The notes under the pieces were generated by a model. That model made no database searches, was not told where the DNA came from, and saw only the letters and a list, made by a program, of their open reading frames with translations. Of a stretch of DNA of 34,094 nt, positions 1 through 28,100 are shown piece after piece (positions within the stretch are counted from its first letter, which is position 1; the number at the start of each line of letters is the position of its first letter). Both the position numbers and the translations under genes were made by a program. Source of the stretch: Hyphomicrobiaceae bacterium (lineage in GTDB: Bacteria; Pseudomonadota; Alphaproteobacteria; Rhizobiales; HXMU1428-3). The DNA is taken from positions 1-34,094 of the forward strand of contig JAJFHF010000194.1 in the NCBI GenBank assembly GCA_021775775.1, given 5' to 3'.

Positions 1-284
1 TCAGAGCCGTCTTCTAATTTTAGCCGCTTAGATTTGCCATGCAAAGCGGCCGCTTTACCATGCACATAATCAATGCCCAAATTATTATAGTGATCTTTAT
101 CTTGTCGTAGATAAGTGCCATCTTCACCTACTTTTTCAATCAGGTAATAGGGAATGGCCATACGAGAATAGGGGGGTTCAGGTTCTCCGCCCAATAAAGT
201 TATTTTTGCATTTTTGTCATGTTTTCGAAGCGTTTCAGCTGCGGTGACACCGGCAGGTCCGGCACCAAGTACAAGATAATGCAT
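1..284 (-). CDS. FAD/NAD(P)-dependent oxidoreductase, N-terminal part (cut by window edge)
   Basis: Only the first 94 codons are present; the gene runs off the left edge. The start is the ATG at 284. The protein opens with a Rossmann dinucleotide-binding motif (LGAGPAGVTAAETL, residues 6-19), followed by an acidic-loop strand end (KITLLGGEPEPPYSRM) typical of the FAD-binding domain of pyridine-nucleotide disulfide and nitrite-reductase-like flavoproteins. It lies downstream of the AOR and ferredoxin genes on the same strand. In Aromatoleum-type AOR the third subunit is an FAD protein that passes electrons to NAD+, and that is the most likely role here. The 251-bp gap before it contains a hairpin terminator, so it may be transcribed separately or by read-through. 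A generic ferredoxin or rubredoxin reductase is the main alternative. Confidence 0.8.
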   Translation of the reverse strand, partial: MHYLVLGAGPAGVTAAETLRKHDKNAKITLLGGEPEPPYSRMAIPYYLIEKVGEDGTYLRQDKDHYNNLGIDYVHGKAAALHGKSKRLKLEDGS

Positions 285-500
285 GACGCAATCCCTCATT
301 CGTTACTTTGTTGATTTATTCAATTAGCAATAAAATTTCAAAAACACATCCACGTTCAAGCAACCCACATTTGTCTGCATGGTTTGTTTTGCATGTAACA
401 GATAAAACAAAGCCAAAGCCAAGATCAAACAGCAATTGCAAAGGGCATATTATTATAATTTATTGGCCCCGCGATGCAGGTCTATATCAAAAAATATAAA

Positions 501-527
501 TCGGCCCCTTAAATTTTAAGGGGCCGA
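501..527 (-). terminator. rho-independent terminator after the AOR gene
   Basis: Arms TCGGCCCCTTA (501-511) and TAAGGGGCCGA (517-527) are perfect inverted repeats with a 5-nt loop. It sits 8 bp beyond the AOR stop codon. Read on the minus strand, the hairpin is followed by a T-rich run (complement of 490-500). It should end or attenuate the ferredoxin-AOR transcript before the FAD gene. Confidence 0.8.
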
Positions 528-535
528 GATAATTA

Positions 536-2389
536 TTAAAGACCTAAACGAGCACGCGTTTCATCTGTTGGTGTCCCATCAGTAGACCAACCACGTAGCT
601 CATAATATTCAGGAAGCATCTTATCAAGACCAGCAACCAACCCTTGCGCAGGGCCAGTTTTGGCAGCTTCTTTCAACAAGCGATCGGGGAGGGTATCTTG
701 ATCCCCTTTGATGCCTGCCGCCATATTGAACTGACGCTCGAGGTTCCAAATGCGTTCGCCAACTTCCATTAGATTATCAACAGACCAATCCCCTTCACAA
801 GCAGCATTCACTTGTGGGGCGATATCTTCCATTGTCCAGGCAAAGGTGGTGAAAACGCAAATGCCAGCACTGTCAACAGCAGCCGTTGCATCTTGGAAAG
901 CTTTAACCAGGCCAGCTTTGCCCTCGGTCACCAAAGGATCTGTCTTTTCAGGGATCCCAAGGATTTCAGAAGACACAGTATAAGACCGCAAATGACAAGC
1001 CCCGCGATTTGAGGTAGCATAAGTCAGTCCCATGCCTTGAATGCCGCGTGGATCATAAGCTGGGAATTCTTGGCCCTTAACTGTCATAGATAGTTCAGGT
1101 CGTCCATATTTTGCACATAAACGAGCTGAGCCCATGCCTAGTTCAACACCAAAACCTTCAGCGGTACCAACGAGCTCACAAGCTTTGGTTAAGGCTTCTG
1201 CATTGCCAAATTTAAGCTCTAGCCCGCCGGTTGTATCTGAGTTGATAATCCCTTCTTCATATAAATCCATGGCTGCGCCAATTGTGGCCCCCAAAGTGAT
1301 AGGGTCAAGACCATGTTCATTACATAAGAAATTGGCATAGGTTAGGGCATCTAGATCATTCACACCAGTTGAGGCCCCAAGAGCCCATGCGGCTTCATAT
1401 TCAAGACCACCAGAATTGTGCTTGTAGCGATCTCTACCCTCTCCTTGCAGTGAAAAGTGTGTTGGATCGATTGTCGAAATCCGCCCACAAGCAATGGTAC
1501 AGCCAAAACAACCAACATTGGTTGTCAGATTCGCTTTGCCATCGGCACGGCGCGGTTCTGCCATAGCTTCAGCAGAAATATCATGCGCGCCATCAAACTG
1601 GACATCGCGCCCATTGCGCGTTGGTAGGGCGCCTGTTTCATTAATTACGTTCATTAGAACTTGAGTACCAAAAGCTGGCAGGCCTTCGCCTGTCACAGCA
1701 TTTTCCGCGAGCACTTTTTTGCCAGCGTCAGTGGCTGCAAAGAAAGCATCCGGGTTCTCAACATCAACACCATTTGAGCCGCGTGCGACAATTGCTTTTA
1801 GGTTTTTGGAACCCATAACGGCCCCAACCCCAGAGCGACCAGCAGCCCGGTGTTTGTTATTGACGATGCAGGCGTAAAGAACGCCTTTTTCACCCGAGGC
1901 ACCAATGGCCGCCACGTGTGCTAAAGGATCTTGCACTTCTGCTTTAATCTCATCATCAGTGTCCCAAACGCTTTTGCCCCATAAATGAGAGGCATCTCTG
2001 AGTTGAACATTGTCATTAAAGATTGAAAGATAAACAGGTTTTGGTGATTTTCCTTCCAGGATCACCATGTCATAGCCAGAAAACTTCAATTCTGGGCCAA
2101 AATAACCACCCGAATTTGAACAAGCAATGGCACCTGTTAGCGGCCCCTTGGTGATAACTGAATAACGACCACCAGTAGAGGCACATGTTCCTGTCAAAGG
2201 TCCTGTTGCGAAAATCATTTTATTTTCAGGAGAAAGAGGATCAACATTCGGATCCATTTCTTCTGATAAGTATTTTGTCGCTAACCCGCGTTGACCAAGA
2301 TATTTTTGAGCCCATTCCATATTCAAAGGCTCAGTTGTAATCTCACCAGCGGTAAGATTCACTCTTAAGATTTTACGTGTCCAAGACAT
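536..2389 (-). CDS. aldehyde:ferredoxin oxidoreductase, tungstopterin catalytic subunit
   Basis: AOR-family enzymes oxidise aldehydes to carboxylic acids, and some reduce acids, at a tungsten bis-pterin centre next to one [4Fe-4S] cluster. In the frame counted from a GTG at 2395 (619 residues), the cluster ligands are visible as C296-x2-C299-x3-C303 plus a distal Cys at 513. Conserved pterin-binding stretches are AGRSGVGAVMGSKNLKAI (about 185-202) and AYDPRG (446-451). I prefer the ATG at 2389, giving 617 residues, because it has AAGGAG 8 bp upstream; the GTG is only 2 bp from that site. Length is normal for the family. The ferredoxin gene lies 25 bp upstream and is surely co-transcribed. Substrate range cannot be read from sequence. 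Anaerobic E. coli YdhV-like enzymes are an alternative subfamily. Confidence 0.93.
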   Translation of the reverse strand: MSWTRKILRVNLTAGEITTEPLNMEWAQKYLGQRGLATKYLSEEMDPNVDPLSPENKMIFATGPLTGTCASTGGRYSVITKGPLTGAIACSNSGGYFGPELKFSGYDMVILEGKSPKPVYLSIFNDNVQLRDASHLWGKSVWDTDDEIKAEVQDPLAHVAAIGASGEKGVLYACIVNNKHRAAGRSGVGAVMGSKNLKAIVARGSNGVDVENPDAFFAATDAGKKVLAENAVTGEGLPAFGTQVLMNVINETGALPTRNGRDVQFDGAHDISAEAMAEPRRADGKANLTTNVGCFGCTIACGRISTIDPTHFSLQGEGRDRYKHNSGGLEYEAAWALGASTGVNDLDALTYANFLCNEHGLDPITLGATIGAAMDLYEEGIINSDTTGGLELKFGNAEALTKACELVGTAEGFGVELGMGSARLCAKYGRPELSMTVKGQEFPAYDPRGIQGMGLTYATSNRGACHLRSYTVSSEILGIPEKTDPLVTEGKAGLVKAFQDATAAVDSAGICVFTTFAWTMEDIAPQVNAACEGDWSVDNLMEVGERIWNLERQFNMAAGIKGDQDTLPDRLLKEAAKTGPAQGLVAGLDKMLPEYYELRGWSTDGTPTDETRARLGL

Positions 2390-2414
2390 GGGCACATCTC
2401 CTTTGATTAAATTA

Positions 2415-2891
2415 TTATGATGTTTGAGCAGCAGAATCTGTTTTTGCAGCCCATGCTCTCATTTTGTCAAACCCTTGTTGCTCTACATCTGTATATGTAA
2501 TCGCATCAGTTGGGCACGCTTTTGCACAAGCAGGATCGCCAGAGCAAAGATCACATTTGATCACTTTACCAGTGTCTGCATTGTAGTTAATGGTGCCAAA
2601 GGGGCAGGCAATGGTGCAAACCTTACAGCCAACACAAAGATTGTCATGTACCAGCTTTACGCCAGAGGCATGATCAGTGGTGATGGCGTTAACAGGGCAA
2701 GCCTGCTGGCACCATGCTTCATCACACTGTGTGCAAGTATAAGGGACAAAACGGCCTTCTTCGTGAAAGTCAAAAATCCGAATGCGGGATTTTGATGGGT
2801 TGAAAGTTTGTTCTTTCTCATAGGCGCATGCTAATTCACATTGCTTACAAGACGTACATTTACCAGGATCGATAACCAGCGCTAGCTGCAT
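2415..2891 (-). CDS. four-cluster ferredoxin-like electron-transfer subunit of AOR
   Basis: The 158-residue protein carries sixteen cysteines in four sets: C12/15/18/22, C53/56/61/65, C86/89/92/96 and C113/116/122/126. This fits four [4Fe-4S] clusters of the polyferredoxin type (DMSO reductase B, HycB and AorA-like). The start at 2891 is chosen over the upstream codon at 2906 because GAGGAGGGA lies 5 bp before it. There is no signal peptide, so it acts in the cytoplasm. It is the first gene of the operon, directly before AOR, as in the aorA-aorB order of Aromatoleum. Its likely job is to carry electrons between the tungsten subunit and the FAD subunit. Confidence 0.88.
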   Translation of the reverse strand: MQLALVIDPGKCTSCKQCELACAYEKEQTFNPSKSRIRIFDFHEEGRFVPYTCTQCDEAWCQQACPVNAITTDHASGVKLVHDNLCVGCKVCTIACPFGTINYNADTGKVIKCDLCSGDPACAKACPTDAITYTDVEQQGFDKMRAWAAKTDSAAQTS

Positions 2892-3333: not shown

Positions 3334-4071
3334 CTATTTTATCTCAATCTCAGGATAGCGATGTTTACCGCGATCGCCTTCAACCAAATCTTCGCCGCCA
3401 ATTGGGCGTTCATAGTCTGTCTTCGGTGGGACAGCCAATTCATTCATATCAGTTTCCCAGACGACGCCTTTAATAGAGCCATCAGCTTGGTACTTCATGC
3501 GATAATAAACCCCATTCCAAAAATTGATGCCATATTCAGCTTGAGCTTTGTGAATAAACAAAAATGCATATTCCAAATCCATAAGATTGTCTTTGGTGAT
3601 GATATCTTTGGTTTTATAAGGGTAGATAAGATGACAAACGGTTTGAATGCCATCAATACATTTAAAAGGGCGCATAGATAAAAAATGGTCACTAAATAAG
3701 GATCCATCCATATTCACTTTAAAATGCGTGCCTTCAGCAACTGGCGTAAATATAATTTCACCAATTTTCAAGTTCTTCCCACCGGCCCCTAGAAGTGTGA
3801 TGGACTTTACAGTTTTCTTTTTTGTAGCGGCAATTTTTATACTATTGGCAGATTTGCGATCACATGTGGTCGAGGGCAGGTTGTGACAACCGGTGCGCGC
3901 CATAGCCAGTGTTTGGCTCTTAGTTTTAAAATCACTGGCAATCGCCTTGGTATAGCCGTTGATGATTGAGTTCGCCTGGTCGCTGGTGACTGACAGAGGG
4001 AGGAAATAATAAAAAGCGGCACATAAAACGACCAAAGCAACTTTTAATAGTATTTTGGAGATGAAATCCAT
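3334..4071 (-). CDS. uncharacterised membrane-anchored periplasmic protein
   Basis: I do not recognise this 245-residue protein. Residues 1-6 are a short N-terminal segment before a hydrophobic stretch (about 7-26) that looks like an uncleaved signal anchor or signal peptide. The rest is hydrophilic and probably periplasmic. Four cysteines come in two pairs (C62/C70 and C138/C146) that could form disulfides. A predicted beta-rich centre (ITLLGAGGKNLKIGEIIFTP) precedes a helical part containing LEYAFLFIHKAQAEYG. The C-terminus is charged. RBS AGAGGG lies about 10 bp before the ATG. It follows the rhodanese-like gene on the same strand after about 175 bp, so they may form a transcription unit. 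No function is assigned. Confidence 0.7.
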   Translation of the reverse strand: MDFISKILLKVALVVLCAAFYYFLPLSVTSDQANSIINGYTKAIASDFKTKSQTLAMARTGCHNLPSTTCDRKSANSIKIAATKKKTVKSITLLGAGGKNLKIGEIIFTPVAEGTHFKVNMDGSLFSDHFLSMRPFKCIDGIQTVCHLIYPYKTKDIITKDNLMDLEYAFLFIHKAQAEYGINFWNGVYYRMKYQADGSIKGVVWETDMNELAVPPKTDYERPIGGEDLVEGDRGKHRYPEIEIK

Positions 4072-4245: not shown

Positions 4246-4890
4246 TTAGTCTGTAATTTGAACGCGAACAGGCACGGCGTTGACCAAAGGGTGTCCTTGA
4301 TCTCTCCACTCATCACTGCCCTCAGGAAACCAAAGTAAATTGGTATATCCCCATCGCGCCGCCCGGCGCACTGCATTCCATGCCATCCAGCAATCCGCCG
4401 TGCAATAAACAATAAGCGGTTTATTTTTGTCACCCATCGTTAGGGTTTCCAAATTGGATTTAAAATAAGTCTTTTGGGCGCTGGTTAATGTGCCTGTGCC
4501 CACATCAGCAAGCCAGGTGCTACCAGGTATATTGGCGCGAGGTTTTGCCAACCGCCAGTGTCCATCGATGGGATCAGGCCCAGTGCCTGTATGGGCCATG
4601 ACATCAAGAAATATCGCTGATTTATTTTGAAAATGAGAAAGGGCCTGCGCGACAGTTATCCGCGTCCCTCCGGGCACAGATTTCGGCAAAGCTGCGCGAT
4701 AATAGGCTGTGCGATAGCCTGTTTTTGAATCAATATATCGATATCGTTTATGCCAAATAATCTGATCTTGTTGGAGGGGCCGAGGCTTTGCTGCAACTGC
4801 ATTTGTCGAAGATTTTAACGATTGGGAACAGAGGCAGGTTAAAAATAGAACCATTACACAAACAAATGCAGTTAGATGATTATCTCTCAT
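4246..4890 (-). CDS. exported rhodanese-like protein, PQQ-associated CXXCW-motif family
   Basis: This 214-residue protein has an N-terminal signal sequence (hydrophobic 8-20) and a rhodanese fold: AIFLDVMAH (about 92-100) corresponds to the first core strand. The active loop reads C163-TAD-C167-W168, followed by MAWNAVRRA. That loop matches the signature of the 'PQQ-dependent catabolism-associated CXXCW motif' family, which usually sits next to quinoprotein alcohol dehydrogenases. No quinoprotein dehydrogenase is present in this window, so the usual partner must lie elsewhere or the protein has another role, perhaps periplasmic thiol chemistry. It diverges from the ABC importer operon across a 415-bp gap. 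Confidence 0.82.
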   Translation of the reverse strand: MRDNHLTAFVCVMVLFLTCLCSQSLKSSTNAVAAKPRPLQQDQIIWHKRYRYIDSKTGYRTAYYRAALPKSVPGGTRITVAQALSHFQNKSAIFLDVMAHTGTGPDPIDGHWRLAKPRANIPGSTWLADVGTGTLTSAQKTYFKSNLETLTMGDKNKPLIVYCTADCWMAWNAVRRAARWGYTNLLWFPEGSDEWRDQGHPLVNAVPVRVQITD

Positions 4891-6322: not shown

Positions 6323-7069
6323 ATGGCGCGTTTCTATCCAATTGTGTCGATTGTCGGTTTTATTATATTCTGGTTCGTTATGGCCTATGTGGTAAATGAC
6401 GTTTTGTTTCCAGGCCCGGTAAAAGTCATGGAAGTCTTGGCCAATGAAATTAATAATGGCTCATTAATTTGGCATTTGTTGATTACCCTTTGGCGCGTAA
6501 TGGCTAGCTTTTTAATCGCGATGTTTATTGGCACTGCTATTGGTTTGTTTATGGGGCGCAACCAGATTGCGAATGGTTTGTTTGACCCTTGGCTTGTGTT
6601 TTTCCTCAATGTCCCAGCTTTGGTCATTATCTTTTTATGCTATATCTGGGGCGGGCTTACTGAGTTTGCTGCCATTTTGGCTGTTGTGATCAATAAAGTG
6701 CCCAATGTCGCTGTCATGTTGCGCGAAGGGGCCCGCTCATTAAGTGTAGAACTTGAGGAAATGGCCGACACGTTCCGCTATACAACAAGCCAGCGCTATC
6801 GGCATATTATCTTACCTCAATTGCAGCCATTTATAGCCGCTGCTGGGCGCTCTGGCCTCTCCCTTATTTGGAAAATCGTGCTGGTCGTGGAGTTTCTTGG
6901 CCGCTCAGATGGGGTCGGCTTTCAACTTCATACCGCATTTCAACTGTTTGATGTGGCGGCGATCTTTGCCTATTCAGTGGCATTTATAGTGATAATGTTA
7001 TTAATTGAAATTTTATTCATTCAACCTTGGGAACAATATGCAACACGTTGGCGACAGGAGAGCCATTAA
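6323..7069 (+). CDS. ABC importer permease (BPD_transp_1 / SsuC type)
   Basis: A 248-residue inner-membrane protein with about six hydrophobic segments. The cytoplasmic coupling loop shows an EAA-type motif (EEMADTFRYTTSQRYRHIILP, about 148-168), the contact point for the ATPase in NitT/TauT-type importers. It starts 3 bp after the binding-protein stop, so the two are translationally linked, and its 3' end overlaps the ATPase reading frame. The length is typical of SsuC/TauC-like permeases. Confidence 0.9.
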   Translation: MARFYPIVSIVGFIIFWFVMAYVVNDVLFPGPVKVMEVLANEINNGSLIWHLLITLWRVMASFLIAMFIGTAIGLFMGRNQIANGLFDPWLVFFLNVPALVIIFLCYIWGGLTEFAAILAVVINKVPNVAVMLREGARSLSVELEEMADTFRYTTSQRYRHIILPQLQPFIAAAGRSGLSLIWKIVLVVEFLGRSDGVGFQLHTAFQLFDVAAIFAYSVAFIVIMLLIEILFIQPWEQYATRWRQESH

Positions 7070-7790
7070 GGTTCATATAAAAGAGAAAACCTATCAAGGT
7101 GCTAATGGGGGGCTGGTAACAGCCCTGCGTGACACACAGTTTTCTTTGTTAGAGAACAGCTTTACGGTGCTGTTCGGCCCCTCTGGTTGTGGGAAATCAA
7201 CAATTTTAAGAATCATGGCTGGCTTAGATCAGGATTATCAAGGCTCTCTTGATTGGCCCCATACCCCTAAAATTGGTTTTGTTTTTCAAGAGCCACGTTT
7301 GTTACCATGGCGCTCGGTTCAAGAAAATGTACAACTCAGCGCAGACCCCACTTTTACCAAGGCTGACTTTGATCGTTTGATGCATGTGATGGGGCTAGAA
7401 GAGCTGCTGGATAATTTCCCGAGCGAACTATCCTTAGGCCTTGCCCGGCGGGTCTCCATAGCGCGTGCTTTCGCCACCAAACCAACATTGTTGTTGCTCG
7501 ATGAACCATTCGTCTCTCTTGATGCCCCAACGGCCTCGCGCTTGCGAGAACTTGTGCGCACGGTTTGGACAGACAATCCTATCACGGCGGTGATGGTCAC
7601 TCATGACATGCGCGAAGCCGTGGAGTTGGGGCAGGAGGTTTTGTTGTTCACAGCCCGGCCGGGCCAGGTGCGTGAGCGCTTGAACATCCTCCCTTCAGAC
7701 AGGGAAAATGAGGCCGCAATAGAAGCCAAACGGGTGCAAGTAAAATCGCGCTATCCTGATTTATTTGAAGGTGCCGATTTGCAGGCCTAA
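7038..7790 (+). CDS. ABC importer ATPase (SsuB/TauB type) with atypical signature motif
   Basis: Counted from the ATG at 7038 (250 residues): Walker A GPSGCGKST (47-55), Q-loop VFQEPRLLPW (82-91), Walker B LLLLDEP with D155-E156, and an H-loop VTHD. The signature is LSLGLARR (131-138) instead of the usual LSGGxxxR, which is unusual but still followed by a normal VSIARAF. The start is uncertain. The ATG at 7038 overlaps the permease by 32 bp and lacks a good RBS. An AGGAG at 7056-7060 sits just before an in-frame ATT at 7065, which could be a rare start. Third gene of the importer operon; it powers uptake from the cytoplasmic face. Confidence 0.88.
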   Translation: MQHVGDRRAIKVHIKEKTYQGANGGLVTALRDTQFSLLENSFTVLFGPSGCGKSTILRIMAGLDQDYQGSLDWPHTPKIGFVFQEPRLLPWRSVQENVQLSADPTFTKADFDRLMHVMGLEELLDNFPSELSLGLARRVSIARAFATKPTLLLLDEPFVSLDAPTASRLRELVRTVWTDNPITAVMVTHDMREAVELGQEVLLFTARPGQVRERLNILPSDRENEAAIEAKRVQVKSRYPDLFEGADLQA

Positions 7791-15427: not shown

Positions 15428-16504
15428 ATGCATGAGACCTTTTATGATGTTATGCGCCGACAGGGGATTACCCGTCGTAGCTTTTTAAAATATTGCAGCC
15501 TGGCAGCGGCTGCGTTGGGATTGGGACCAGAGTTTGCTCCTAAAATTGCCCATGCGATGGAGACCAAACCAAGGATACCAGTTTTATGGCTGCATGGTTT
15601 GGAATGTACTTGCTGTTCTGAAAGTTTTATTCGCTCAGCTCATCCTTTGGCGAAAGATGTTATTTTATCAATGATTTCTCTCGATTATGATGACACGATT
15701 ATGGCAGCAGCTGGTCATCAAGCTGAAGCGATTATTGAAGAGACAATCGAGAAATATGATGGCAATTTCATCTTGGCGGTTGAAGGCAATGCGCCTTTGA
15801 ATGAAGATGGCATGTATTGCATCATCGGTGGTAAACCGTTTGTTGAGCAACTTACACATGCTGCTAAACATGCAAAAGCTATTATTTCTTGGGGGTCATG
15901 TGCGTCTTGGGGCTGTGTTCAGGCCGCGCGGCCAAATCCAACCCGGGCTACGCCCACGCACAAAGTTCCTGGGATTGGGAACAAGCCGATTATTAAGGTG
16001 CCTGGTTGTCCGCCTATCTCTGAGGTGATGACTGCGGTGATTACCTATATGCTGACATTTGAAAAAATGCCATCACTCGATCGTCAGGGTCGTCCTAAGA
16101 TGTTTTATTCTCAGCGCATTCACGATAAATGCTATCGCCGTCCACACTTTGATGCTGGGCAGTTTGTTGAGAAATTTGATGATGAGGGTGCCAAAAAAGG
16201 GTACTGCCTCTACAAAGTTGGCTGTAAAGGCCCAACAACTTATAACGCTTGTTCCACCGTTCGTTGGAGCGGGGGGCTTTCGTTCCCAATTCAAGCTGGG
16301 CACCCATGTATTGGTTGTTCTGAAGATGGATTTTGGGACAAAGGCTCTTTCTATGATCGCTTAACCGATATTCACGGTTTTGGGGTTGAGGCAGATGCAG
16401 ATGAAATAGGAACAACAGCCGCCGTAATCGTTGGCGGAGCCGCCGCAATCCACGCCGGGGCTAGCGCCGTTAAACGTGCGACGCAGCAGGGAGATCAAGA
16501 ATAA
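15428..16504 (+). CDS. hupS: uptake [NiFe]-hydrogenase small subunit precursor, oxygen-tolerant type
   Basis: The 358-residue precursor carries the Fe-S clusters that take electrons from the NiFe site. A Tat signal with RRSFLK (16-21) ends at AHA|M (43). In mature numbering cysteines fall at 17, 19, 20, 115 and 120 (ECTCC and GSCASWGC) with a further one at 151 (PGCPP). This is the six-cysteine pattern that binds the [4Fe-3S] proximal cluster of oxygen-tolerant membrane-bound hydrogenases (E. coli Hyd-1, Cupriavidus MBH). Medial and distal cluster ligands follow ([30 protein letters not shown]). A C-terminal hydrophobic helix (about 327-350) anchors it in the membrane. Its stop overlaps the hupL start by one base. 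It is the first gene behind the sigma-54 promoter. Confidence 0.97.
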
Positions 16505-18303
16505 TGGCAATAATTAATACACCTAATGGATATAAACTGGATGATAGCGGCCAACGGGTTGTTGTTGATCCGGTAACGCGTATTGAAGGTCATATGCGCT
16601 GTGAAGTGAATCTGGATGCGGATAATTATATTCGTAATGCGGTTTCAACCGGCACTATGTGGCGCGGGCTAGAGGTTATTTTAAAGGGCCGTGATCCGCG
16701 CGATGCTTGGGCCTTTGTGCAACGTATTTGTGGTGTTTGCACAGGTACCCACGCTTTGACGTCTGTGCGCGCTGTTGAAGATGCCTTGAATATTGATATT
16801 CCTGAGAATGCGAATTCAATTCGTAATATCATGCAATTGTCTTTGCAAATTCATGATCACTTGGTTCACTTTTATCACCTGCATGCGCTTGATTGGGTTA
16901 ATCCGGTTAACGCTCTAAAGGCTGATCCTAAAGCGACATCTGAGTTGCAGCAAAAGGTTTCTCCGTCTCACCCTAAATCTTCGCCGGGTTATTTTAGAGA
17001 TATTCAAACGCGTATCCGCAAATTTATTGAAAGTGGTCAGCTTGGCCCTTTCAAGAATGGTTATTGGACAAACCCAGCCTATTTGTTGCCACCTGAAGCT
17101 GACTTGATGGCTGTGACACACTATCTGGAAGCGCTTGATTTTCAAAAAGAAATCATGACCACGCGGACGATATTTGGTGGTAAAGACATTCACCCTAACT
17201 GGCTGGTTGGCGGTGTGCCATGTGCTATCAATATGGATGGTGATTTGGCTGCTGGTGCTCCGATTAATATGGAACGGTTGAATTATGTGCGCGGTGTTGT
17301 GCAGCGTACCATTCGCTTTGTGAATGATGTTTATATTCCAGATATTTTGGCCATTGGTGGTTTTTACAAAGGCTGGCTATATGGGGGTGGTTTATCAGGT
17401 ACCAACGTATTGGCTTATGGTGACATCCCTGACAATGCTAACGATTATTCTCCTGCTAATCTTATGATGCCGCAAGGGGCTGTGATTAATGGTGATCTGA
17501 GTACGGTTCATCCAATTGATTTACGCAACCCTGATGAGATTCAGGAATTTGTCCCTCACTCTTGGTATAAATACCCTGATGAGGCAAAGGGTTTGCATCC
17601 TTGGGATGGTATTACCGAGCCTAATTATGAGCTGGGCCCGAATTTTGAAGGCACAAAAACTGACATCAAGAAGCTTGATGAAGGGGCTAAATATTCATGG
17701 ATTAAAGCACCTCGTTGGAAGGGGCACGCCATGGAAGTTGGGCCGCTTGCACGTTATGTGGTTGGTTATGCACAAGGGCATGAGTACTTTACAGAGCAAA
17801 TTAATTTTACTCTTAAAGCTCTTGATGTGCCTATTTCGGCTCTTTTCTCAACATTGGGAAGAACGGCTGCTCGTGCTTTGGAAGCAGCATGGGCTGCAGA
17901 CAAGCAACTCTATTTCCTAGATAAATTGGTCAATAATATCAAAAACGGTGATAGCACAACAGCGAACACCGAAAAATTTGACCCGAGCACTTGGCCTTCA
18001 GATATCAAAGGTCTTGGCTTTACTGAGGCGCCGCGCGGTGCCCTTGGTCACTGGGTTAAAATCAAAGATACCAAAATTGATAATTATCAATGTGTGGTTC
18101 CAACTACATGGAATGGTTCTCCGCGAGATAACCAAGGGAATATTGGTGCTTTTGAAGCTTCGCTTATGAACACAAAGGTTGAGGTTGCTGAAGAGCCGGT
18201 GGAAATATTGCGTACCATTCATAGTTTCGACCCGTGTCTTGCTTGTTCTACCCATGTGATGTCTGAAGATGGTGAAACACTGGCTGACGTTAAAGTCAGA
18301 TAG
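16504..18303 (+). CDS. hupL: uptake [NiFe]-hydrogenase large subunit precursor
   Basis: This 599-residue catalytic subunit oxidises H2 at the NiFe(CN)2CO centre. Nickel ligands are in RICGVC (C76, C79) and DPCLACSTH (C578, C581, H584). The 15 residues after H584 form the C-terminal extension that the HupD protease removes once nickel is inserted. The L1 region reads [15 protein letters not shown]. It has no signal peptide of its own and is exported with HupS by the Tat route. Length is typical of group 1 periplasmic-facing enzymes. An RBS GGGAGA lies inside the end of hupS. Confidence 0.97.
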
Positions 18304-18314
18304 GGAGAGCTGTT

Positions 18315-19013
18315 ATGAGTGTTGCAAAAATTCATACTGAAGAAGCCATTTATGTTTATGGGCCATGGATTAGGATTTGGCACTGGACGCAGGCTTTTGC
18401 TATTTTGGTATTGGGTGTTACCGGTTATTTGATCGGGGCTCCACCTGAATCAGTTTCCTCTGGCGAGGCTTCCGATCATTTTCAAATGGGCTATATTCGC
18501 TATTTTCACTTTTGCGCGGCTTATATTTTGATTATCGGTTTTGTCGTTCGCATATGGCGTGCCATTGTTGGGAACAGACATAATCGCGAAATATTTCTTC
18601 CGCCTGTGTGGAGGACATCATTTTGGAGTGAAGTTTGGCATGAAATAAAATGGTATGCCTTGGTCATTCCTGAGCCTAAAAAGTATGTTGGGCATAATCC
18701 GCTTGCGCTGCTTGCTATGCATATAATGTATGTTTGGACAACGATCTTTATGATCATTACCGGGCTTTCATTATATGGTGAAGGTACGGGAATGGGCACA
18801 TGGCAACATACATTCTTTACATCATGGGTGAACCCGTTATTTGGGCAAAGCCAAGATGTTCATACCTGGCATCATTTGGGAATGTGGATGCTGATCTGTT
18901 TCGTCATTACCCATGTCTATGTTGCTGTGCGTGAAGATATTATGTCACGCCAATCCATCATCAGCTCAATGATATCGGGTTGGAGAACATTTAAGGATAA
19001 TCGTTCCAATTGA
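18315..19013 (+). CDS. hupC: Ni/Fe-hydrogenase b-type cytochrome subunit
   Basis: A 232-residue membrane diheme cytochrome b that anchors HupSL and passes electrons to the quinone pool. Four hydrophobic helices are seen near 22-41, 62-82, 128-150 and 187-206. Candidate heme ligands include H23 (WIRIWHW) and H65 (YFHFC), plus His in the later helices (MHIMYVWTT, HTWHHLGMW). The start is 11 bp after the hupL stop, with GGGAG before it. A strong terminator follows, making it the last gene of the structural unit. Confidence 0.95.
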   Translation: MSVAKIHTEEAIYVYGPWIRIWHWTQAFAILVLGVTGYLIGAPPESVSSGEASDHFQMGYIRYFHFCAAYILIIGFVVRIWRAIVGNRHNREIFLPPVWRTSFWSEVWHEIKWYALVIPEPKKYVGHNPLALLAMHIMYVWTTIFMIITGLSLYGEGTGMGTWQHTFFTSWVNPLFGQSQDVHTWHHLGMWMLICFVITHVYVAVREDIMSRQSIISSMISGWRTFKDNRSN

Positions 19014-19050
19014 GGATGAATAAAAATAATAATTGTCCCACACTAACTGA

Positions 19051-19080
19051 AATGGCGCTCCTAGGAGCGCCATTTTTTTT
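19051..19080 (+). terminator. rho-independent terminator/attenuator after hupC
   Basis: Bases 19051-19074 form a perfect 24-bp palindrome (arm AATGGCGCTCCT and its complement) followed directly by eight T (19073-19080). It lies 38 bp past the hupC stop and should separate or damp expression of the downstream maturation genes relative to hupSLC. Confidence 0.92.
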
Positions 19081-19236
19081 CGTGGACCTGTTTTATATTC
19101 AGAAACGTCCGTATGAGGCGAAATTTATTAATATTAACGTATGAAAAATGACAAAAAGTAATAAAACTATCCATTTTTTTTTAAAATAGATAAGAAATCT
19201 TTCAATTATTGTTGCGTTGTGTTCATTTTTGATGTT

Positions 19237-19255
19237 GAATGCTTTGCATGCATTC
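19237..19255. repeat. short inverted repeat before hupD
   Basis: GAATGC (19237-19242) and GCATTC (19250-19255) are 6+6 bp arms around TTTGCAT, 27 bp upstream of the hupD start. It could be an operator for a hupD promoter or a leader hairpin; no clear -35/-10 pair was found in this gap. Confidence 0.4.
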
Positions 19256-19281
19256 GCGTTCAAATGCCAGTGGAGGGGCGT

Positions 19282-19974
19282 ATGAAAGATAAGAAAAACA
19301 TTTTGATAATGGGTATCGGTAACCTGCTTTGGGCCGATGAGGGTTTTGGTGTCAGAGCGATTGATGAGCTGCACCGGACCTATGAATTTGGTGATAATGT
19401 TGTTTTACTGGATGGGGGCACGCAAGGGATCTATTTGGTTCAGCATGTTCGTGATTGTGATGTTCTCATCGTCTTTGATGCCGTTGATTATAATTTACCG
19501 CCTGGCACTTTAAAGCGGGTGGAGGGGGAAGATGTCCCTAAATTTATGGGCGTCAAAAAAATCTCTTTGCATCAAACGGGCTTTCAAGAAGTTTTATCTA
19601 TGGCTGAGATGATGGGTGATCCTCCTGAGAAATTGTTGCTTGTCGGTGTGCAGCCTGTGGAGTTGGATGATTTTGGTGGCAGTCTTCGCCCGGAAGTGAA
19701 AGCTCAAATCAAGCCGGCAATTGATGTTGCTCTCGACTATATGGCGCAACTGGACATTGTCCCTAAAAAACGTGATGTTCCCCTCCCTGAAGATGAGACA
19801 CTGGCCTGTTCTGTGATGGTGCCTAGCCGATATGAAAGTGAGAGGCCTTCTGAAGATGAGGCTTGTCGACATGGTGATGTGAGGGTGATTTCAAATGATC
19901 GCTGGCGCGCGCCGGAAGATTTTGATCAGGAAATGGAAAATGTCTTGAACCAAATTCCTGAGGGAAAAAGCTGA
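19282..19974 (+). CDS. hupD: hydrogenase maturation endopeptidase
   Basis: This protease removes the C-terminal tail of HupL after nickel insertion. From the ATG at 19282 (GGAGGGG just upstream) it has 230 residues. Nickel-sensing ligands expected from HybD are present as E20 (LLWADEGFGV), D66 (VFDAVD) and H97 (ISLHQTG). The upstream frame to 19219 lacks an RBS. It is somewhat longer than usual, with a C-terminal tail rich in acidic residues and proline. It is the first gene after the terminator; its stop overlaps the hupF start by one base. Confidence 0.94.
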   Translation: MKDKKNILIMGIGNLLWADEGFGVRAIDELHRTYEFGDNVVLLDGGTQGIYLVQHVRDCDVLIVFDAVDYNLPPGTLKRVEGEDVPKFMGVKKISLHQTGFQEVLSMAEMMGDPPEKLLLVGVQPVELDDFGGSLRPEVKAQIKPAIDVALDYMAQLDIVPKKRDVPLPEDETLACSVMVPSRYESERPSEDEACRHGDVRVISNDRWRAPEDFDQEMENVLNQIPEGKS

Positions 19975-20258
19975 TGTGTATCGGCGTTCCGATGAAAATA
20001 ATTGAAACGGGTTTTGGGTTTGCGGTTTGTGACTCTAAGGGTGTGCGCCATGAAATTGATACCATGTTGATCGGCGATCAGCCGGTGGGGACATGGGTGC
20101 TCGTTTTTATTAATGCCGCTAGGCAAGTTATTGAACCAGAAGAAGCAATGAGGATCGTTTCAGCATTGGAAGCGCTCGAGAAGGTGATGGCTGGTGATAA
20201 CGAAATAGATCATTTATTTCCAGATTTAATCAGTGCCAACAAGATTTGTGACGTTTAA
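19974..20258 (+). CDS. hupF: HupF/HypC-family hydrogenase chaperone
   Basis: A 94-residue relative of HypC with the N-terminal MCIGVP motif, whose C2 binds the Fe(CN)2CO precursor or the large subunit. In Rhizobium HupF protects HupL during maturation at higher oxygen, alongside HypC. A separate, more canonical HypC is encoded at 24898. One-base overlap with hupD shows translational coupling. Confidence 0.92.
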   Translation: MCIGVPMKIIETGFGFAVCDSKGVRHEIDTMLIGDQPVGTWVLVFINAARQVIEPEEAMRIVSALEALEKVMAGDNEIDHLFPDLISANKICDV

Positions 20259-20275
20259 AGGGAGTTAATTAAATT

Positions 20276-20767
20276 ATGTTTTCACCTCTGATTGACGATA
20301 TTATAAAACGAGAAAATATCAGTGTTGTTAATGAAGGTAATGTTGATGAATTCGCGCAGAAAAACGGTGATGTGATCCTCTTTATTGGTGGTGACCCTGA
20401 TCGATTGGTTTTGGTCCATGATGTTGCTGTGATCCTTCCTGAATTGGTGAAGGCTTCTAATGGTGGCTTGAAACCAGCTATTTTAGAACGTGATAGTGAG
20501 CGCGCGCTGCAGAGGCGCTATCGCTTTTCTTCCTTTCCAAGCTTGGTGTTTTTAAGAGATGGGGAATATTTGGGGGTGATAAGCGGTGTGCTTGATTGGA
20601 CAGATTATGTTGTTCAAATCAATGAAATCTTAGCCAAGGAACCGAGCGAGCCTCCAGCCTTTAAAATGCCTGAGGGCTGCGATACGCCCGCGCCTAGCGT
20701 GGATGCGTCAGCCCAACAAGCGCCTATTGTAAACAAGTTAATTGAAAAAGGAGCGGATAATGTCTAA
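20276..20767 (+). CDS. hupG: HupG/HyaE-family hydrogenase assembly protein (thioredoxin fold)
   Basis: A 163-residue HyaE/HoxO-like protein. The middle shows a thioredoxin-like order (VILFIGGDPDRLVLVHDVAVILPEL, then FSSFPSLVFLRDGEYLGVISGVLDW) but no CxxC redox pair. HoxO/HyaE bind the Tat signal of the small subunit and hold it until maturation is complete. A Pro-rich C-terminal tail extends past the domain. The 3' end overlaps hupH by 8 bp. Confidence 0.9.
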   Translation: MFSPLIDDIIKRENISVVNEGNVDEFAQKNGDVILFIGGDPDRLVLVHDVAVILPELVKASNGGLKPAILERDSERALQRRYRFSSFPSLVFLRDGEYLGVISGVLDWTDYVVQINEILAKEPSEPPAFKMPEGCDTPAPSVDASAQQAPIVNKLIEKGADNV

Positions 20768-21611
20768 TTCATTAATTCCACCAGCATTTGGACCTGGGAG
20801 TCAATCTGAGGGTGATGATGGCGAAAAGCTTGAATATATGGAAATGCCACGAGAGATGGCTGTTTTTGATCGCCCGATCGCCCCTGAACCTGAAGACATT
20901 GTTGGTATGGAAGCGGGGAAACAAAAATTAGAAGACATTCTTGCCGCTTTGAAAAACTATAAGGTGGGCAGTTCACCGGTGGTGATTGAGCTTGGGGATT
21001 TAGGGGAAGTTGACCTGGGTTTGGTTAACCAAATTTTGGGTGAAGGTGAGGTCTCTATTGTTTGCGGGGCTGATGTCCAGGCGCAGGAATCTGTTTTGGC
21101 TGGCGTGTGGCGTGTGCTTCATTTTGGCGATGACGGTAATTTGTCGCGTGATACTGTTGAGATTGTCGATTATCCCGGCGCTGTACGTGAGCGCGTTTTT
21201 AAAAATGCCAGTGAGCGCGTGGGGGCTATTGATGCTCAGTTACCTGATGGTGTGTTCAATGCGCCGTCGTTGATATCGGAACTTGACGACAAGCAAAGCT
21301 CATACAAAGCTGGCGACCCACTGCACAATATCAACTTGTCTCTCTTGCCGCACACTGAAGAAGATCTTGTGTATTTGGCAGCCAAAACGGGTAAAGGGAG
21401 CACCGTTGTGTTGTCACGCGGTTATGGTAATTGTCGTATTTCAAGCACCGATACTAAGAATATTTGGTGGGTTCAATATTACAACTCCCAAGATGCTATG
21501 ATTTTAAATTCAATTGAAATTGTTGATGTGCCTGAGGTGGTTTGTGCCGCTCAAGAAGATTTGGAAGACAGTGCAGAACGGTTGCACGAAATTTTGGAAA
21601 TCTACAGATGA
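20760..21611 (+). CDS. hupH: HupH/HyaF-family hydrogenase expression protein
   Basis: A 283-residue protein from the ATG at 20760 (GGAG upstream; the in-frame codon at 20742 lies within hupG and lacks an RBS). Family landmarks are EIVDYPGAVRERVF, SLLPHTEEDLVYL and the C-terminal block GYGNCRISSTDTKNIWWVQYYNSQDAMILNSIEIVDVPEVV. HoxQ/HyaF works with HoxO/HyaE on small-subunit assembly. It overlaps hupI by 4 bp (ATGA). Confidence 0.92.
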   Translation: MSNSLIPPAFGPGSQSEGDDGEKLEYMEMPREMAVFDRPIAPEPEDIVGMEAGKQKLEDILAALKNYKVGSSPVVIELGDLGEVDLGLVNQILGEGEVSIVCGADVQAQESVLAGVWRVLHFGDDGNLSRDTVEIVDYPGAVRERVFKNASERVGAIDAQLPDGVFNAPSLISELDDKQSSYKAGDPLHNINLSLLPHTEEDLVYLAAKTGKGSTVVLSRGYGNCRISSTDTKNIWWVQYYNSQDAMILNSIEIVDVPEVVCAAQEDLEDSAERLHEILEIYR

Positions 21612-21838
21612 ACGAAATGAAGTCGTCTTTTTATAATGGGTCATTTGGCGGCGATGCTGATAAGCTCAATGATAACAGTTTGTTAGAGTGCAATATCTGT
21701 TGGCAGATATATGACCCGGCTGTAGGTGATGACTATTGGCAAATTCCAGCTGGTACGCCATTTTCAAAACTGCCTGACCATTGGACTTGCCCTAATTGTG
21801 ATGGTGATAAAGACGCGTTCATGGTGGTGAAAAAATAA
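21608..21838 (+). CDS. hupI: hydrogenase-associated rubredoxin
   Basis: A 76-residue rubredoxin from the ATG at 21608, which overlaps the hupH stop. Iron ligands are C28-x2-C31 (CNICWQIY) and C61-x2-C64 (CPNCDGDKDAF). HupI/HoxR is needed for Fe-S cluster integrity of the small subunit under oxygen. An N-terminal extension of about 20 residues precedes the rubredoxin fold. Confidence 0.95.
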   Translation: MNEMKSSFYNGSFGGDADKLNDNSLLECNICWQIYDPAVGDDYWQIPAGTPFSKLPDHWTCPNCDGDKDAFMVVKK

Positions 21839-21840
21839 CC

Positions 21841-22482
21841 ATGGATAAAACATGTGCAGATGAAATCGTTGAGCGTACAGGTGAAGACATTCGTAATCAG
21901 CTGATTGATCTGTTTCAGACAATCGAAGTTACGCGCATGGATGGTGTCCCTGTGTTGAATAAGAAATTGTCGGTTGATGCGATCGGTTTTGAGCCCTATG
22001 GCGATTTTTATCTGGGCGTTTTGCTTACTCCTTGGTTTATGAACTTAATGATGCTTCCCATGGCGGGGGATGCCAATGAGCTTGAAGGCAAAAAATTTGG
22101 GTCGAAACAATCGCATGCTTTGCCCAATGGTCAGTTTCAATTTATTGTTGGGCATGAGGAAGATATAGGGTTTTATCTGTCATGTTCATTGTTTTCCCCT
22201 GTGTTTGAATTTGCTGATCAGGAAAGCGCCCTGCAAACCGCAAGGGCGGCTTTGGATGAAGTTATGAGGGTGCGTGATGATGTCGATGAGCCTGACGAAG
22301 ATGAGGACATGAAAGAGATATGGGCCGGGCGTTTGCCTGTACCTGAAGATGAGGTGGGCCAGGCGCTAGAGGAACAGGTCAGTGAGGGGCCACCGCCTGA
22401 GCTGAGCCGGCGTGATGTTTTGAGGGGCTTTAGGCAATCACCAAATCCTCTTGATGACTCGGAAGCGGAAAATCAGGCATGA
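21841..22482 (+). CDS. hupJ: HupJ/HoxT, HybE-family hydrogenase assembly chaperone
   Basis: A 213-residue protein whose core (DAIGFEPYGDFYLGVLLTPWFMNLMMLPM, LPNGQFQFIVGHEEDIGFYLSCSLFSPVFEFAD) matches the HybE family. C-terminal LSRRDVLRGF is also usual for it. HybE/HoxT guide the Tat-bearing small subunit or protect its clusters during aerobic growth. An acidic linker (DDVDEPDEDEDMKE) sits before the tail. It overlaps hupK by 4 bp. Confidence 0.9.
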   Translation: MDKTCADEIVERTGEDIRNQLIDLFQTIEVTRMDGVPVLNKKLSVDAIGFEPYGDFYLGVLLTPWFMNLMMLPMAGDANELEGKKFGSKQSHALPNGQFQFIVGHEEDIGFYLSCSLFSPVFEFADQESALQTARAALDEVMRVRDDVDEPDEDEDMKEIWAGRLPVPEDEVGQALEEQVSEGPPPELSRRDVLRGFRQSPNPLDDSEAENQA

Positions 22483-23660
22483 GTATTGAGGGTGAAATCA
22501 GCGTATGGATTGAGCTGGGCCCGACCGGGACTGCCTTGACAGAGCCTGCTATGGAAGCAAATGGTGGTGTTAAAGATGTTTACATAAAGTCCAGCCGAAA
22601 AACTGATTTTGCGAGTTTCTTAAAGGGCAAGCCTCGCTCAAAGGCCGTCGAAATTTTACCCGTTCTTTTTAATGTCTGCGGCCAAGCGCATGCGCAGGCA
22701 AGTGCGAGTGCGTGTCGTCTTGTTCCTCGAACAAATGAGGATGTAACAGCTGGGGCATTGCTGGTTCTATGCGAAAATGCCCGAGAACATTTGCTGCGTA
22801 TTTTTACCGGATGGGATCTTGGTGCAAAACCGGATCTTGCTTCTGTTCCATTTCAAGATATTATTGGGTTGGTGGGTAAAATGAAAACGGCGGTAAGTGA
22901 TGGGGCAGGCGGCGTTCAAATTTCACAATGTGATACGCAAGCGGGTATCAGGCAAATCGCCAACCAATTGGATGAAATTCTAGGTCAGCATATTTTTAAC
23001 TGTTCGCCGAAAGAGTGGTTGGGGTTGCGTGATGATGATCAACTCGCTCGCTGGGCGGTGAGTGACACAACAGTGCCCGCAAATTATATCAACAGCCTCT
23101 ATCAAAATGAGTGGCAAGGGGTTGGTTGTACCGAACCTAATTTTCTGCCCGCGTTGTGCCCCGATGAATTGGTTCAGCAGATGCATGGGGACCAGGGCAA
23201 TGAGTTTATTTGTGAACCGGATTGGAATGGGACTTGTTATGAAACAGGCTCTTTTGCTAGAAATTACGACCACCCATTGGTGAGTGTTTTGATAGATCGT
23301 TATGGGGCTGGATTGTTGGCGCGCCAAGTTGCGCGGCTTGTTGAATTGGCCAGAATATCTGAACAAATTATTGGGCTGATTTCTTTTGAGTGTGAGACTG
23401 ATGACAGTGAGGTACGGCTGGGTTTTGGTCAGGTGGAGACAGCAAGAGGTCAGCTTACACATTCTGCTATTTTTAAAGGTGATGAAATTATTGACTATAA
23501 AATCCTGGCCCCGACCGAATGGAATTTTCACCCGCGCGGTGTGGTGTGTGATAGTTTGAAAAGTCTGGTGAATTCTGGGTGTGCAGACCAAGGGACATTG
23601 GCCCCTATGATTATTGAGGCAATTGACCCTTGTGTTCCTTATCAAGTGAGGATGAATTGA
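22479..23660 (+). CDS. hupK: HupK, scaffold-like relative of the hydrogenase large subunit
   Basis: A 393-residue HupK/HoxV-like protein. It resembles a degenerate large subunit: the C-terminus ends AIDPCVPYQVRMN, keeping DPC but losing the second Cys and the tail, as if already processed. HoxV/HupK is thought to carry the Fe(CN)2CO intermediate to HupL. The conserved block GARGQLTHSAI-like (ETARGQLTHSAIFKGDEIIDYKILAPTEWNFHPRGVV) matches the large-subunit region around the active site. It overlaps hypA by one base. Confidence 0.9.
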   Translation: MSIEGEISVWIELGPTGTALTEPAMEANGGVKDVYIKSSRKTDFASFLKGKPRSKAVEILPVLFNVCGQAHAQASASACRLVPRTNEDVTAGALLVLCENAREHLLRIFTGWDLGAKPDLASVPFQDIIGLVGKMKTAVSDGAGGVQISQCDTQAGIRQIANQLDEILGQHIFNCSPKEWLGLRDDDQLARWAVSDTTVPANYINSLYQNEWQGVGCTEPNFLPALCPDELVQQMHGDQGNEFICEPDWNGTCYETGSFARNYDHPLVSVLIDRYGAGLLARQVARLVELARISEQIIGLISFECETDDSEVRLGFGQVETARGQLTHSAIFKGDEIIDYKILAPTEWNFHPRGVVCDSLKSLVNSGCADQGTLAPMIIEAIDPCVPYQVRMN

Positions 23661-24001
23661 TGCATGAAATGTCGATTTGTGAAGGGATTTTGCAGGTCAT
23701 CGAAGATCAGGCCGTCGCCCAAGATTTTAAAGAAGTTAAACGTGTCAGGCTTGAGGTGGGGCCTATGGCAGGTGTTGAGCTTGAAGCTTTGCAGTTTAGC
23801 TATGATGTCGTGACCAGGGGCACGATTGCCGATCACTCAAAATTAGAAGTTATAAATTTACCAATTGATGCTTGGTGCATGCCTTGTGCACAAAAAGTGG
23901 TTGTTAAGGAAAGATTTGACGCTTGCCCTGATTGTGGGAGCCATCAAGTGCAGATCAATGGCGGTGATGAGCTGCGTATAAAAGATATGGAGGTTAACTG
24001 A
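23660..24001 (+). CDS. hypA: nickel metallochaperone HypA
   Basis: A 113-residue protein starting [10 protein letters not shown], where H2 is the nickel ligand. The zinc site is C73-x2-C76 and C89-x2-C92. HypA and HypB insert nickel into the large-subunit precursor. The start at 23660 (GAGG upstream) is chosen because MHEMS is universal in the family; the longer frame overlaps hupK. Confidence 0.96.
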
Positions 24002-24882: not shown

Positions 24883-24897
24883 AGGGAGGTTTTAAAA

Positions 24898-25146
24898 ATG
24901 TGTTTGGCATTACCAGCAGAAATAGTTGAACTGAAACCAGATAATGATAATGCAGTTGTTTCCTTGGAAGGGGTGAAGAAAGAAATTTCTTTGGCATTGG
25001 TTGAAGATGTTGATGTGGGAGATTTTGTCTTGGTGCATGTGGGCTATGCCTTGCACAAGGTGAGTGTTGAAGAAGCAAAAAGAACGCTCTCATTGATGGC
25101 TGAAGCTGGGGTTTTGGATGAAGAAGTTGCGGAGTTCTCACAATGA
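24898..25146 (+). CDS. hypC: hydrogenase maturation chaperone HypC
   Basis: An 82-residue protein with MCLALP at the start (C2) and the conserved His in VHVGYALHKV (H47). HypC with HypD holds the iron while CN and CO ligands are added, then delivers it to the large subunit. GGGAGG precedes the ATG. It overlaps hypD by 4 bp. Confidence 0.96.
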   Translation: MCLALPAEIVELKPDNDNAVVSLEGVKKEISLALVEDVDVGDFVLVHVGYALHKVSVEEAKRTLSLMAEAGVLDEEVAEFSQ

Positions 25147-27355: not shown

Positions 27356-27364
27356 GGTGTTTTA

Positions 27365-28084: not shown

Positions 28085-28100
28085 TTTGGAGTGTGATGTA

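Follow-up and report, generated by a model that had tools for sequence, protein, structure and literature searches.

A PQQ-associated AorABC-type aldehyde oxidoreductase locus with a hairpin between aorB and aorC in a Hyphomicrobiaceae bacterium

Introduction

Which pathway does a bacterial tungsten aldehyde oxidoreductase (AOR) serve when its genes share a contig with an uptake hydrogenase, and what sets the amounts of its subunits? These questions are raised by the left end of a 34,094-base contig (JAJFHF010000194.1, assembly GCA_021775775.1) from a Hyphomicrobiaceae bacterium whose genome comprises 2.7 megabases (Mb) in 266 contigs. We call this contig, taken whole, the window. A sequence-only reading of the same DNA had recognised three AOR genes and had regarded their position about 12 kilobases (kb) from the hydrogenase genes as suggestive of a link to H2 oxidation. 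Here, we report that the nearer conserved context of the AOR, which that reading missed, is the synthesis and uptake of pyrroloquinoline quinone (PQQ), and that a hairpin lies between aorB and aorC. We favor, with a probability of roughly 0.6, an explanation in which an AorABC enzyme linked to nicotinamide adenine dinucleotide (NAD) is encoded within a PQQ gene cluster and clears PQQ-derived aldehydes, with the hairpin limiting AorC.

Below, G and L numbers denote genomes and loci of our comparison sets, and C numbers denote contigs of the host genome, in which the window is C106. Papers are cited by PubMed Central (PMC) number, and what we take from them rests on excerpts of their text.

Results

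An AorABC-type oxidoreductase at the left end of the window

The AOR genes lie on the minus strand in the following arrangement.

2415..2891, minus strand: aorA, small subunit that has motifs for four [4Fe-4S] clusters and a conserved C-terminal helix; matches 8c0z_C
536..2389, minus strand: aorB, predicted tungsten-cofactor catalytic subunit, 617 amino acids (aa) from ATG; matches 8c0z_A and Pfam AFOR_N and AFOR_C
501..527, minus strand: hairpin between aorB and aorC, 12 pairs and a loop of 3, then a T-rich tail; from a terminator-like scan and folding
1..284, minus strand: 5' part of aorC, subunit for NAD and flavin adenine dinucleotide (FAD); the rest is on contig C119 (L005, up to base 1102)

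For all three subunits, the best PDB match was one of the chains of 8c0z, a structure of the Aromatoleum aromaticum aldehyde oxidoreductase (AorB to 8c0z_A, E = 1.5e-286; AorA to 8c0z_C, E = 6.3e-69; the 94 aa of AorC inside the window, E = 2.5e-20). The sequence-only reading had likened the locus to the Aromatoleum enzyme and had pointed to the shared order of polyferredoxin with 16 Cys, AOR and FAD protein; the resemblance, the order and the Cys count all held up. AorA (158 aa) is 66.0% identical to Aromatoleum AorA, with 16 of 16 Cys aligned and a conserved C-terminal helix sequence (GFDKMRAWAAKT, compared with GLARMQAWAAKA in Aromatoleum), the helix through which the Aromatoleum filament is built. 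AorB is 68.2% identical to its counterpart and retains all 16 of the residues that PMC10413684 names for cofactor, catalysis and substrate, a count that leaves out positions 294, 297 and 301, which are guessed cluster ligands. AorC is 49.6% identical; R41 and M42 are retained, and Q occupies the site termed Glu294 in PMC10413684.

The aorC gene starts at the ATG at 284 on the minus strand, and its reading frame leaves the window at base 1. Since the left end of C106 is identical to the first 141 bases of C119, the two contigs can be read through, which yields a complete AorC of 414 aa with a match to 8c0z_E (E = 3.3e-121). The remainder of the FAD gene, which the sequence-only reading placed beyond the left edge, was thus recovered there, and it belongs to the AorC family and not to an unrelated one. 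The join is supported by five relatives in which the AorA-AorB-AorC order is unbroken on single contigs. The contigs of the host genome (window base 1) and of G192 (L164:10033) both stop within aorC, perhaps because the gene is too similar between strains for short-read assembly. The mechanical open reading frame (ORF) of aorB begins at a GTG 6 bases ahead of the ATG.

A quick tree of 114 rows places AorB in one group with Aromatoleum AorB and other proteobacterial AorBs, as the sequence-only reading expected; Pyrococcus AOR, 9mqx and E. coli YdhV fall outside, the program having warned of long branches for these three. Judged by sequence, the locus is an AorABC-type tungsten aldehyde oxidoreductase, of class III in the scheme of PMC13328260, and adds a member to a known kind of enzyme. 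Aromatoleum AorABC oxidizes aldehydes with NAD+ and forms a filament in which a single AorC carries AorAB units (PMC10413684, PMC6365974). By analogy with that enzyme, the AorABC of the window would react with NAD+ and H2, and tungsten is the predicted active-site metal of its AorB.

The host also carries candidate genes for cofactor maturation and tungsten supply. A MoaD-like protein of the ThiS family, ending in GG, is encoded 1.2 kb from aorC (L005:2297-2548); no second MoaD-like gene was recognised downstream of aorC among ORFs of at least 70 aa. Of the MoaD/MoeA-like genes that the sequence-only reading proposed to look for, one MoaD-like gene was found; the MoeA part did not fit, as aorD and aorE of Aromatoleum are described, in the excerpts, as MoaD-like and not MoeA-like. 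Its proposed search for a tungstate transporter in the genome gave a mixed answer: a TupA-like protein is encoded on C105, with tungstate-binding 3lr1 among its PDB matches, but its score for NF041772 (246 bits, E = 3.7e-73) is below the curated cut-off of 400. MoaA is above cut-off in the host genome, and a TupA homologue lies close to AOR in 2 of 80 other AOR loci. In 28 of these 80 loci, the next gene after the MoaD-like one encodes a small protein of about 100 aa (L094:13411-13755 and 27 others), perhaps an additional maturation factor.

A hairpin recurs between aorB and aorC

Positions 470-545 of the window fold with -28.9 kcal/mol (z = -5.7 compared with shuffled sequences). All six members of the host's genus that have both genes carry a hairpin between them (z from -2.3 to -5.3), in spacers of 129-361 nucleotides (nt). 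The letters differ from the window in five relatives, and pairs 1, 2 and 7 vary on both arms with pairing kept; the arms were chosen by hand, which makes this a description and not a test.

A wider survey covered 82 of 88 loci; the six others lacked a recognised aorB and aorC in the expected order. The aorB-aorC spacer ranges from 0 to 717 nt (median 98.5), and the median distance from aorA to aorB is 18 nt. Under a strict terminator rule (stem plus T-run), 18 of the 82 aorB-aorC spacers qualified, including that of the window, and 0 of the 82 aorA-aorB spacers, which are mostly too short for a terminator. Two of the 82 (G018 and G168) duplicate L045 and L056 and are omitted from the fold survey of 86 loci. 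There, the best local fold had z < -2 in 44 of 57 aorB-aorC spacers of 40-450 nt (median z = -3.34), compared with 11 of 75 upstream of aorA (median -0.38) and 4 of 10 between aorC and moaD (median -1.35). When equal lengths of 100 nt past the stop codon were compared, aorB again stood out, with z < -2 in 43 of 63 cases (median -2.61), compared with 4/50 for aorA, 11/48 for aorC, 2/23 for moaD, 4/27 for the small gene after moaD, 12/68 for other co-directional genes and 11/109 for other gene ends. The other-gene controls are ends of ORFs that have a homologue in another locus; some may be false ORFs, which would weaken the control.

A second set gave similar results. It consists of the 30 loci with the best matches to Aromatoleum AorB in the family of L124, in which 80 of 199 genomes match. 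The aorB-aorC spacer measures 60-359 nt in 30 of 30, and z < -2 was obtained in 23 of 30, compared with 1 of 90 windows inside aorB and 6 of 30 segments upstream of aorA. In L166, the presumed A. aromaticum locus and a member of this second set, a 115-nt spacer holds a hairpin of -37 kcal/mol (z = -5.0). No Rfam family matched at the gathering threshold in the window, L005 or L166, and a literature search for tungsten AOR with a stem-loop returned no paper.

What might such a hairpin do? In cellulosome and ABC (ATP-binding cassette) transporter operons, stem-loops set subunit ratios via selective RNA processing and stabilisation, according to the excerpts. Much free AorAB is reported in preparations of the Aromatoleum enzyme, and the size of the oligomer in vivo was not known to the authors of the structure (PMC10413684); this makes a role for the hairpin directly testable. 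The view that AorAB is more abundant than AorC rests on that paper. On the sequence evidence above, the hairpin may keep AorAB in excess over AorC. The wider proposal, that a stem-loop kept for its structure in alpha-, beta- and gammaproteobacterial loci sets the AorAB:AorC ratio and the length of the enzyme nanowire, and in the genus serves PQQ-dependent alcohol oxidation, is tentative, and we consider the odds to lean against it.

A rival reading takes the hairpin for no more than an ordinary terminator at the close of an aorAB unit, aorC being expressed from its own promoter; we would give it a little less than even odds. The stem and T-run in 18 of 82 loci, the window among them, agree with this, as do the genus spacers, which are long enough to leave room for a promoter. 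However, the strict rule fails in the other 64 loci, 22 of them with spacers below 40 nt, and a promoter scan of the window's minus strand from 285 to 500 gave no site. The outcome of termination, AorC below AorAB, could in any case be identical. Individual terminator-like sites prove nothing here, because their number in L005 (1000-7200) was 4 against 4.8 expected; in the window (1-5400) it was 12 against 5.1. A single operon from the CXXCW gene to pqqE was considered and found to be unsupported, as hairpins or terminator-like sites follow aorB, aorC and the outer-membrane-protein (OMP) gene.

PQQ genes flank the AOR set in the genus

Upstream of aorA in the window, and past aorC on C119, lie genes related to PQQ.

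4246..4890, minus strand: PQQ-dependent catabolism-associated CXXCW (rhodanese-like) protein; TIGR03865
5306..6319, plus strand: PqqT-like periplasmic PQQ-binding protein of an ABC importer; PDB matches 9b1u/9b1v
6323..7069, plus strand: ABC permease of the PqqT-like importer; NCBIfam permease matches below cut-offs; same position in G110, G033, G075 and G141
7038..7790, plus strand: ABC ATPase of the PqqT-like importer; NCBIfam ATPase matches below cut-offs; same position in G110, G033, G075 and G141
3334..4071, minus strand: protein of unknown family between the CXXCW gene and aorA, conserved in relatives and, in L113, again close to PQQ genes
Contig C119, past aorC: OMP-like gene, MoaD-like gene, three pqqA, pqqB, pqqC, pqqD, pqqE, and a gene after pqqE that we take to be alr, the name being our own assignment

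The CXXCW protein scores 179 bits against a TIGR03865 cut-off of 128, and pqqB, pqqC, pqqD and pqqE all exceed their NCBIfam cut-offs. The best PDB matches of the binding protein are 9b1u and 9b1v (E = 2.5e-68), and 9B1V is PqqT with bound PQQ (PMC12828617). The OMP gene matches an outer-membrane barrel weakly, below cut-off. This AOR-PQQ block is preserved in order in six other members of the genus as far as their contigs extend: it is whole on single contigs in G110, G033 and G075, reaches pqqC in G169 and the OMP gene in G141, and in G192 runs aorC-OMP-moaD-pqqA-pqqBCDE on a contig that stops within aorC. No aorB was found in the G192 genome.

The host also encodes candidate sources of aldehydes, namely three quinoprotein alcohol dehydrogenases that score above cut-off, one each on C239, C22 and C36; the C36 gene is cut at the contig end.

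L140:2023-5996, L142:3-1604 and L141:1595-3499: quinoprotein alcohol dehydrogenases of the host

The C239 gene adjoins a SoxYZ-like carrier and a quinoprotein-system metallohydrolase, both above cut-off. The C239 and C36 enzymes carry a D-Y-D motif, presumably typical of lanthanide-dependent enzymes, and the third carries D-F-S.

Two further observations concern this neighbourhood. Three near-identical pqqA copies stand in tandem ahead of pqqB (L005:2829-3753), and two copies are present in G110, G033, G075 and G169. The protein encoded at 3334..4071 matches nothing in Pfam or NCBIfam at E 0.001; it looks secreted, has homologues in G110, G033, G075, G169 and L113, and accompanies CXXCW and PqqT-like genes, L113 included.

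PQQ linkage recurs outside the genus without being general

Genes of PQQ catabolism lie near AOR in 7 of the 80 other loci (L076, L088, L096, L103, L113, L116 and L122); family models were run on part of these seven, and the remainder were assigned by homology to them. TIGR03866 scores above its cut-off for the beta-propellers in L076 and L113, and TIGR03863 matches the binding proteins in L076, L103 and L116 with scores short of its cut-off. The fullest case is L113, where a CXXCW protein, a PqqT-like importer, a beta-propeller, a SoxYZ-like carrier, a metallohydrolase and a quinoprotein dehydrogenase surround the AOR; L096 has a beta-propeller and a quinoprotein dehydrogenase near AOR. The dehydrogenases of L113 and L096, loci that belong to classes other than the host's, are 68% and 65% identical to the C239 enzyme, respectively. 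In the AorB tree, AOR-PQQ loci occupy at least three separate branches, namely the genus, a mainly gammaproteobacterial clade and L113.

Counts across whole genomes are less uniform. In the host's order with the genus included, pqqC is found in 10 of 33 AOR genomes compared with 61 of 166 others (p = 0.55). Outside the genus the association is negative (4/27 compared with 60/165, p = 0.03), and in the family of L124 it is positive (39/80 compared with 16/119). No pqqC match was obtained in G298, presumed to be A. aromaticum. For the order outside the genus, we rejected the idea that PQQ generally partners AOR, although the L124 family points the other way.

These results bear on an alternative in which the AOR clears toxic aldehydes of many origins, amino-acid breakdown among them, and lies next to PQQ genes through an inherited accident. 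The 73 of 80 loci in which none of the searched PQQ genes occurs in the available flank are as this alternative expects, as are the negative pqqC association in the order and the induction of the Aromatoleum enzyme on phenylalanine (PMC13328260). An accident of inheritance does not sit well with the recurrence of PQQ linkage on separate AorB branches, with the positive association in the L124 family or with L113, where the alcohol dehydrogenase, SoxYZ-like carrier and metallohydrolase lie within 4 kb of aorC. We regard general detoxification as unlikely.

A role for AOR after PQQ alcohol dehydrogenases is not a new idea. A tungsten AOR has been proposed for formaldehyde in Methyloversatilis (PMC5023235), where the AOR transcript is 2.6-fold higher on methanol than on methylamine (the table row ends in 0.17), and a tungsten AOR has likewise been proposed to act after alcohol dehydrogenases in Cycloclasticus (PMC12510462). 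Both papers propose AOR as a later step; in the text available to us, we found no description of an AOR within a PQQ alcohol catabolism gene cluster.

The hydrogenase is linked to AOR at the genome level only

The right part of the window holds a second system, which we treat as context and did not judge to be part of the AOR unit.

15428..34093, plus strand: uptake [NiFe] hydrogenase cluster with hupSLC, maturation genes and hoxA/hupT/hupU-like genes; TIGR00391 and PF00374 above cut-off

The cluster starts 12.5 kb from aorA, close to the distance given by the sequence-only reading. Gene order does not connect the two systems. In G033, G075, G110 and G169, hydrogenase and AOR occupy separate contigs, G169 being fragmented into about 230; no hydrogenase genes were found within 60 kb around AOR in G110, G033 and G075; and G141 and G192, both with AOR genes, have no PF00374 match. 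Neither HupL nor HupS was found in the available flanks of the 80 AOR loci from other organisms (0/80), the flanks being at least 20 kb in 32 loci, 10-20 kb in 31 and shorter in 17. Coupling of AOR and hydrogenase through gene order was rejected on the basis of the four relatives and the 80 loci.

In terms of genome content, the two do co-occur. Within the order, a [NiFe] hydrogenase is present in 16 of 33 AOR genomes compared with 28 of 166 others (p = 3e-4), and the difference persists without the genus (11/27 compared with 28/165, p = 0.008) and when only close AorBs are counted without the genus (9/20 compared with 30/172, p = 0.007). Counted by genus, it weakens (9/19 with AOR compared with 20/80 without, p = 0.09), and in the family of L124 it is again marked (62/80 compared with 55/119, p = 1e-5). 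These counts carry no correction for kinship or genome size, and the AOR counts in the order, at E = 1e-50 or better, admit AorB homologues of 36-58% identity. The hydrogen link is a genome-level correlation only; of the H2-oxidation link suggested by the sequence-only reading, co-occurrence survives and local linkage does not.

H2 oxidation by the Aromatoleum AOR proceeds at about 10% of its rate with aldehydes, the apparent Km being about 0.3 μM, and A. aromaticum is described as having no hydrogenase (PMC9295118). In agreement, there was no hydrogenase match in G298, a genome that we presume to be A. aromaticum and that encodes an AorB 100% identical to 8c0z, and the use of H2 by the A. aromaticum AOR therefore needs no adjacent hydrogenase. 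A role in H2 metabolism, with electrons from H2 or from a reductant pool common with the uptake hydrogenase reducing acids or NAD+, finds encouragement in this reactivity and in the uncorrected co-occurrence but is improbable given the lack of local linkage and of hydrogenase matches in G141, G192 and G298, all with AOR genes.

Further hydrogenase-like genes were seen in the host. On C208 (L162:3026-7539), small and large subunit genes, read by eye, lie behind an NtrC-like regulator, and C145 (L145) has a large-subunit match. The window cluster includes hypD, hypE and hoxX (24001-29813); a search of the 40-kb hydrogenase regions in G110, G033 and G075 did not turn them up.

Discussion

We favor a model in which the AOR of the window works downstream of PQQ-dependent alcohol oxidation. 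In the genus, the AOR set is embedded in a PQQ cluster that comprises a PqqT-like importer, the CXXCW gene, moaD, two to three pqqA and pqqBCDE, and its most likely role is the cytoplasmic removal of aldehydes produced in the periplasm by PQQ-dependent alcohol dehydrogenases. AorB would convert aldehyde to acid at a tungsten-bis-pterin site, and electrons would travel via the AorA [4Fe-4S] clusters to the FAD in AorC, which would hand them to NAD+, with AorAB probably arranged in a short filament. The hairpin after aorB probably cuts aorC output or shields the aorAB mRNA, by partial termination where a T-run follows and by protection of the aorAB message where there is none; AorAB would then exceed AorC, as growth of the filament needs. 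The model draws on homology, conserved residues, gene order, PQQ context and hairpin enrichment; from these we infer the metal, substrate, pathway, filament and effect of the hairpin.

Several observations weigh against this model. With regard to the hairpin, 22 of the 82 loci have a spacer shorter than 40 nt, which leaves no room for one; ten of these 22 come from records with Gammaproteobacteria or Methylococcaceae in the title. On C119, hairpins after aorC and after the OMP gene fold with z = -4.7 and -5.2, comparable to that of aorB, so that the aorB hairpin is distinctive only in the comparison across loci. With regard to PQQ, pqqC is depleted among AOR genomes of the order outside the genus, and in the four such genomes that have it, it is on a contig other than that of AOR; the alcohol dehydrogenases of the host likewise lie on contigs other than that of AOR. 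AOR also co-occurs with hydrogenases at the genome level, and a conserved block can be kept for reasons besides a common pathway.

One implication of our study concerns the physiology of these enzymes. A physiological role has been defined for a member in only 5 of 92 tungsten oxidoreductase clades (PMC13328260). The PQQ context offers a concrete, testable pathway in culturable relatives such as Motiliproteus sediminis (L096), and the hairpin is a concrete genetic element that can be tested in Aromatoleum itself. If the hairpin controls filament length, mRNA structure would be tied to the assembly of an electron-conducting enzyme filament. We consider both the PQQ context and the hairpin to deserve follow-up; of the two ideas, the aorB-aorC hairpin is the new observation, and the placement of AOR after PQQ alcohol dehydrogenases has been proposed before.

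Finally, the locus can be compared with three known systems. In cellulosome and ABC transporter operons, as described in the excerpts, a stable stem-loop likewise comes right after the gene of a product thought to be needed in excess, whereas the aorB hairpin is described here from sequence and folding. Clusters for PQQ alcohol catabolism comprise a CXXCW protein, a beta-propeller, a SoxYZ-like carrier, a metallohydrolase and a quinoprotein dehydrogenase. The CXXCW gene, the PqqT-like importer and the pqqABCDE genes that flank the AOR resemble these clusters, and in L113 and L096 the AOR loci include the quinoprotein dehydrogenase as well, whereas the host's own dehydrogenases lie elsewhere in its genome. 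The closest relative is AorABC of A. aromaticum EbN1 (8c0z; class III, clade 87 tungsten oxidoreductase). The two share the aorA-aorB-aorC order, the 16 residues of AorB, the 16 Cys and C-terminal helix of AorA, FAD contacts in AorC, a MoaD-like gene downstream and the hairpin between aorB and aorC. In contrast to A. aromaticum EbN1, moaD in our host is separated from aorC by 1.2 kb with an outer-membrane-like gene between them, PQQ genes follow, and the host additionally has an uptake hydrogenase.

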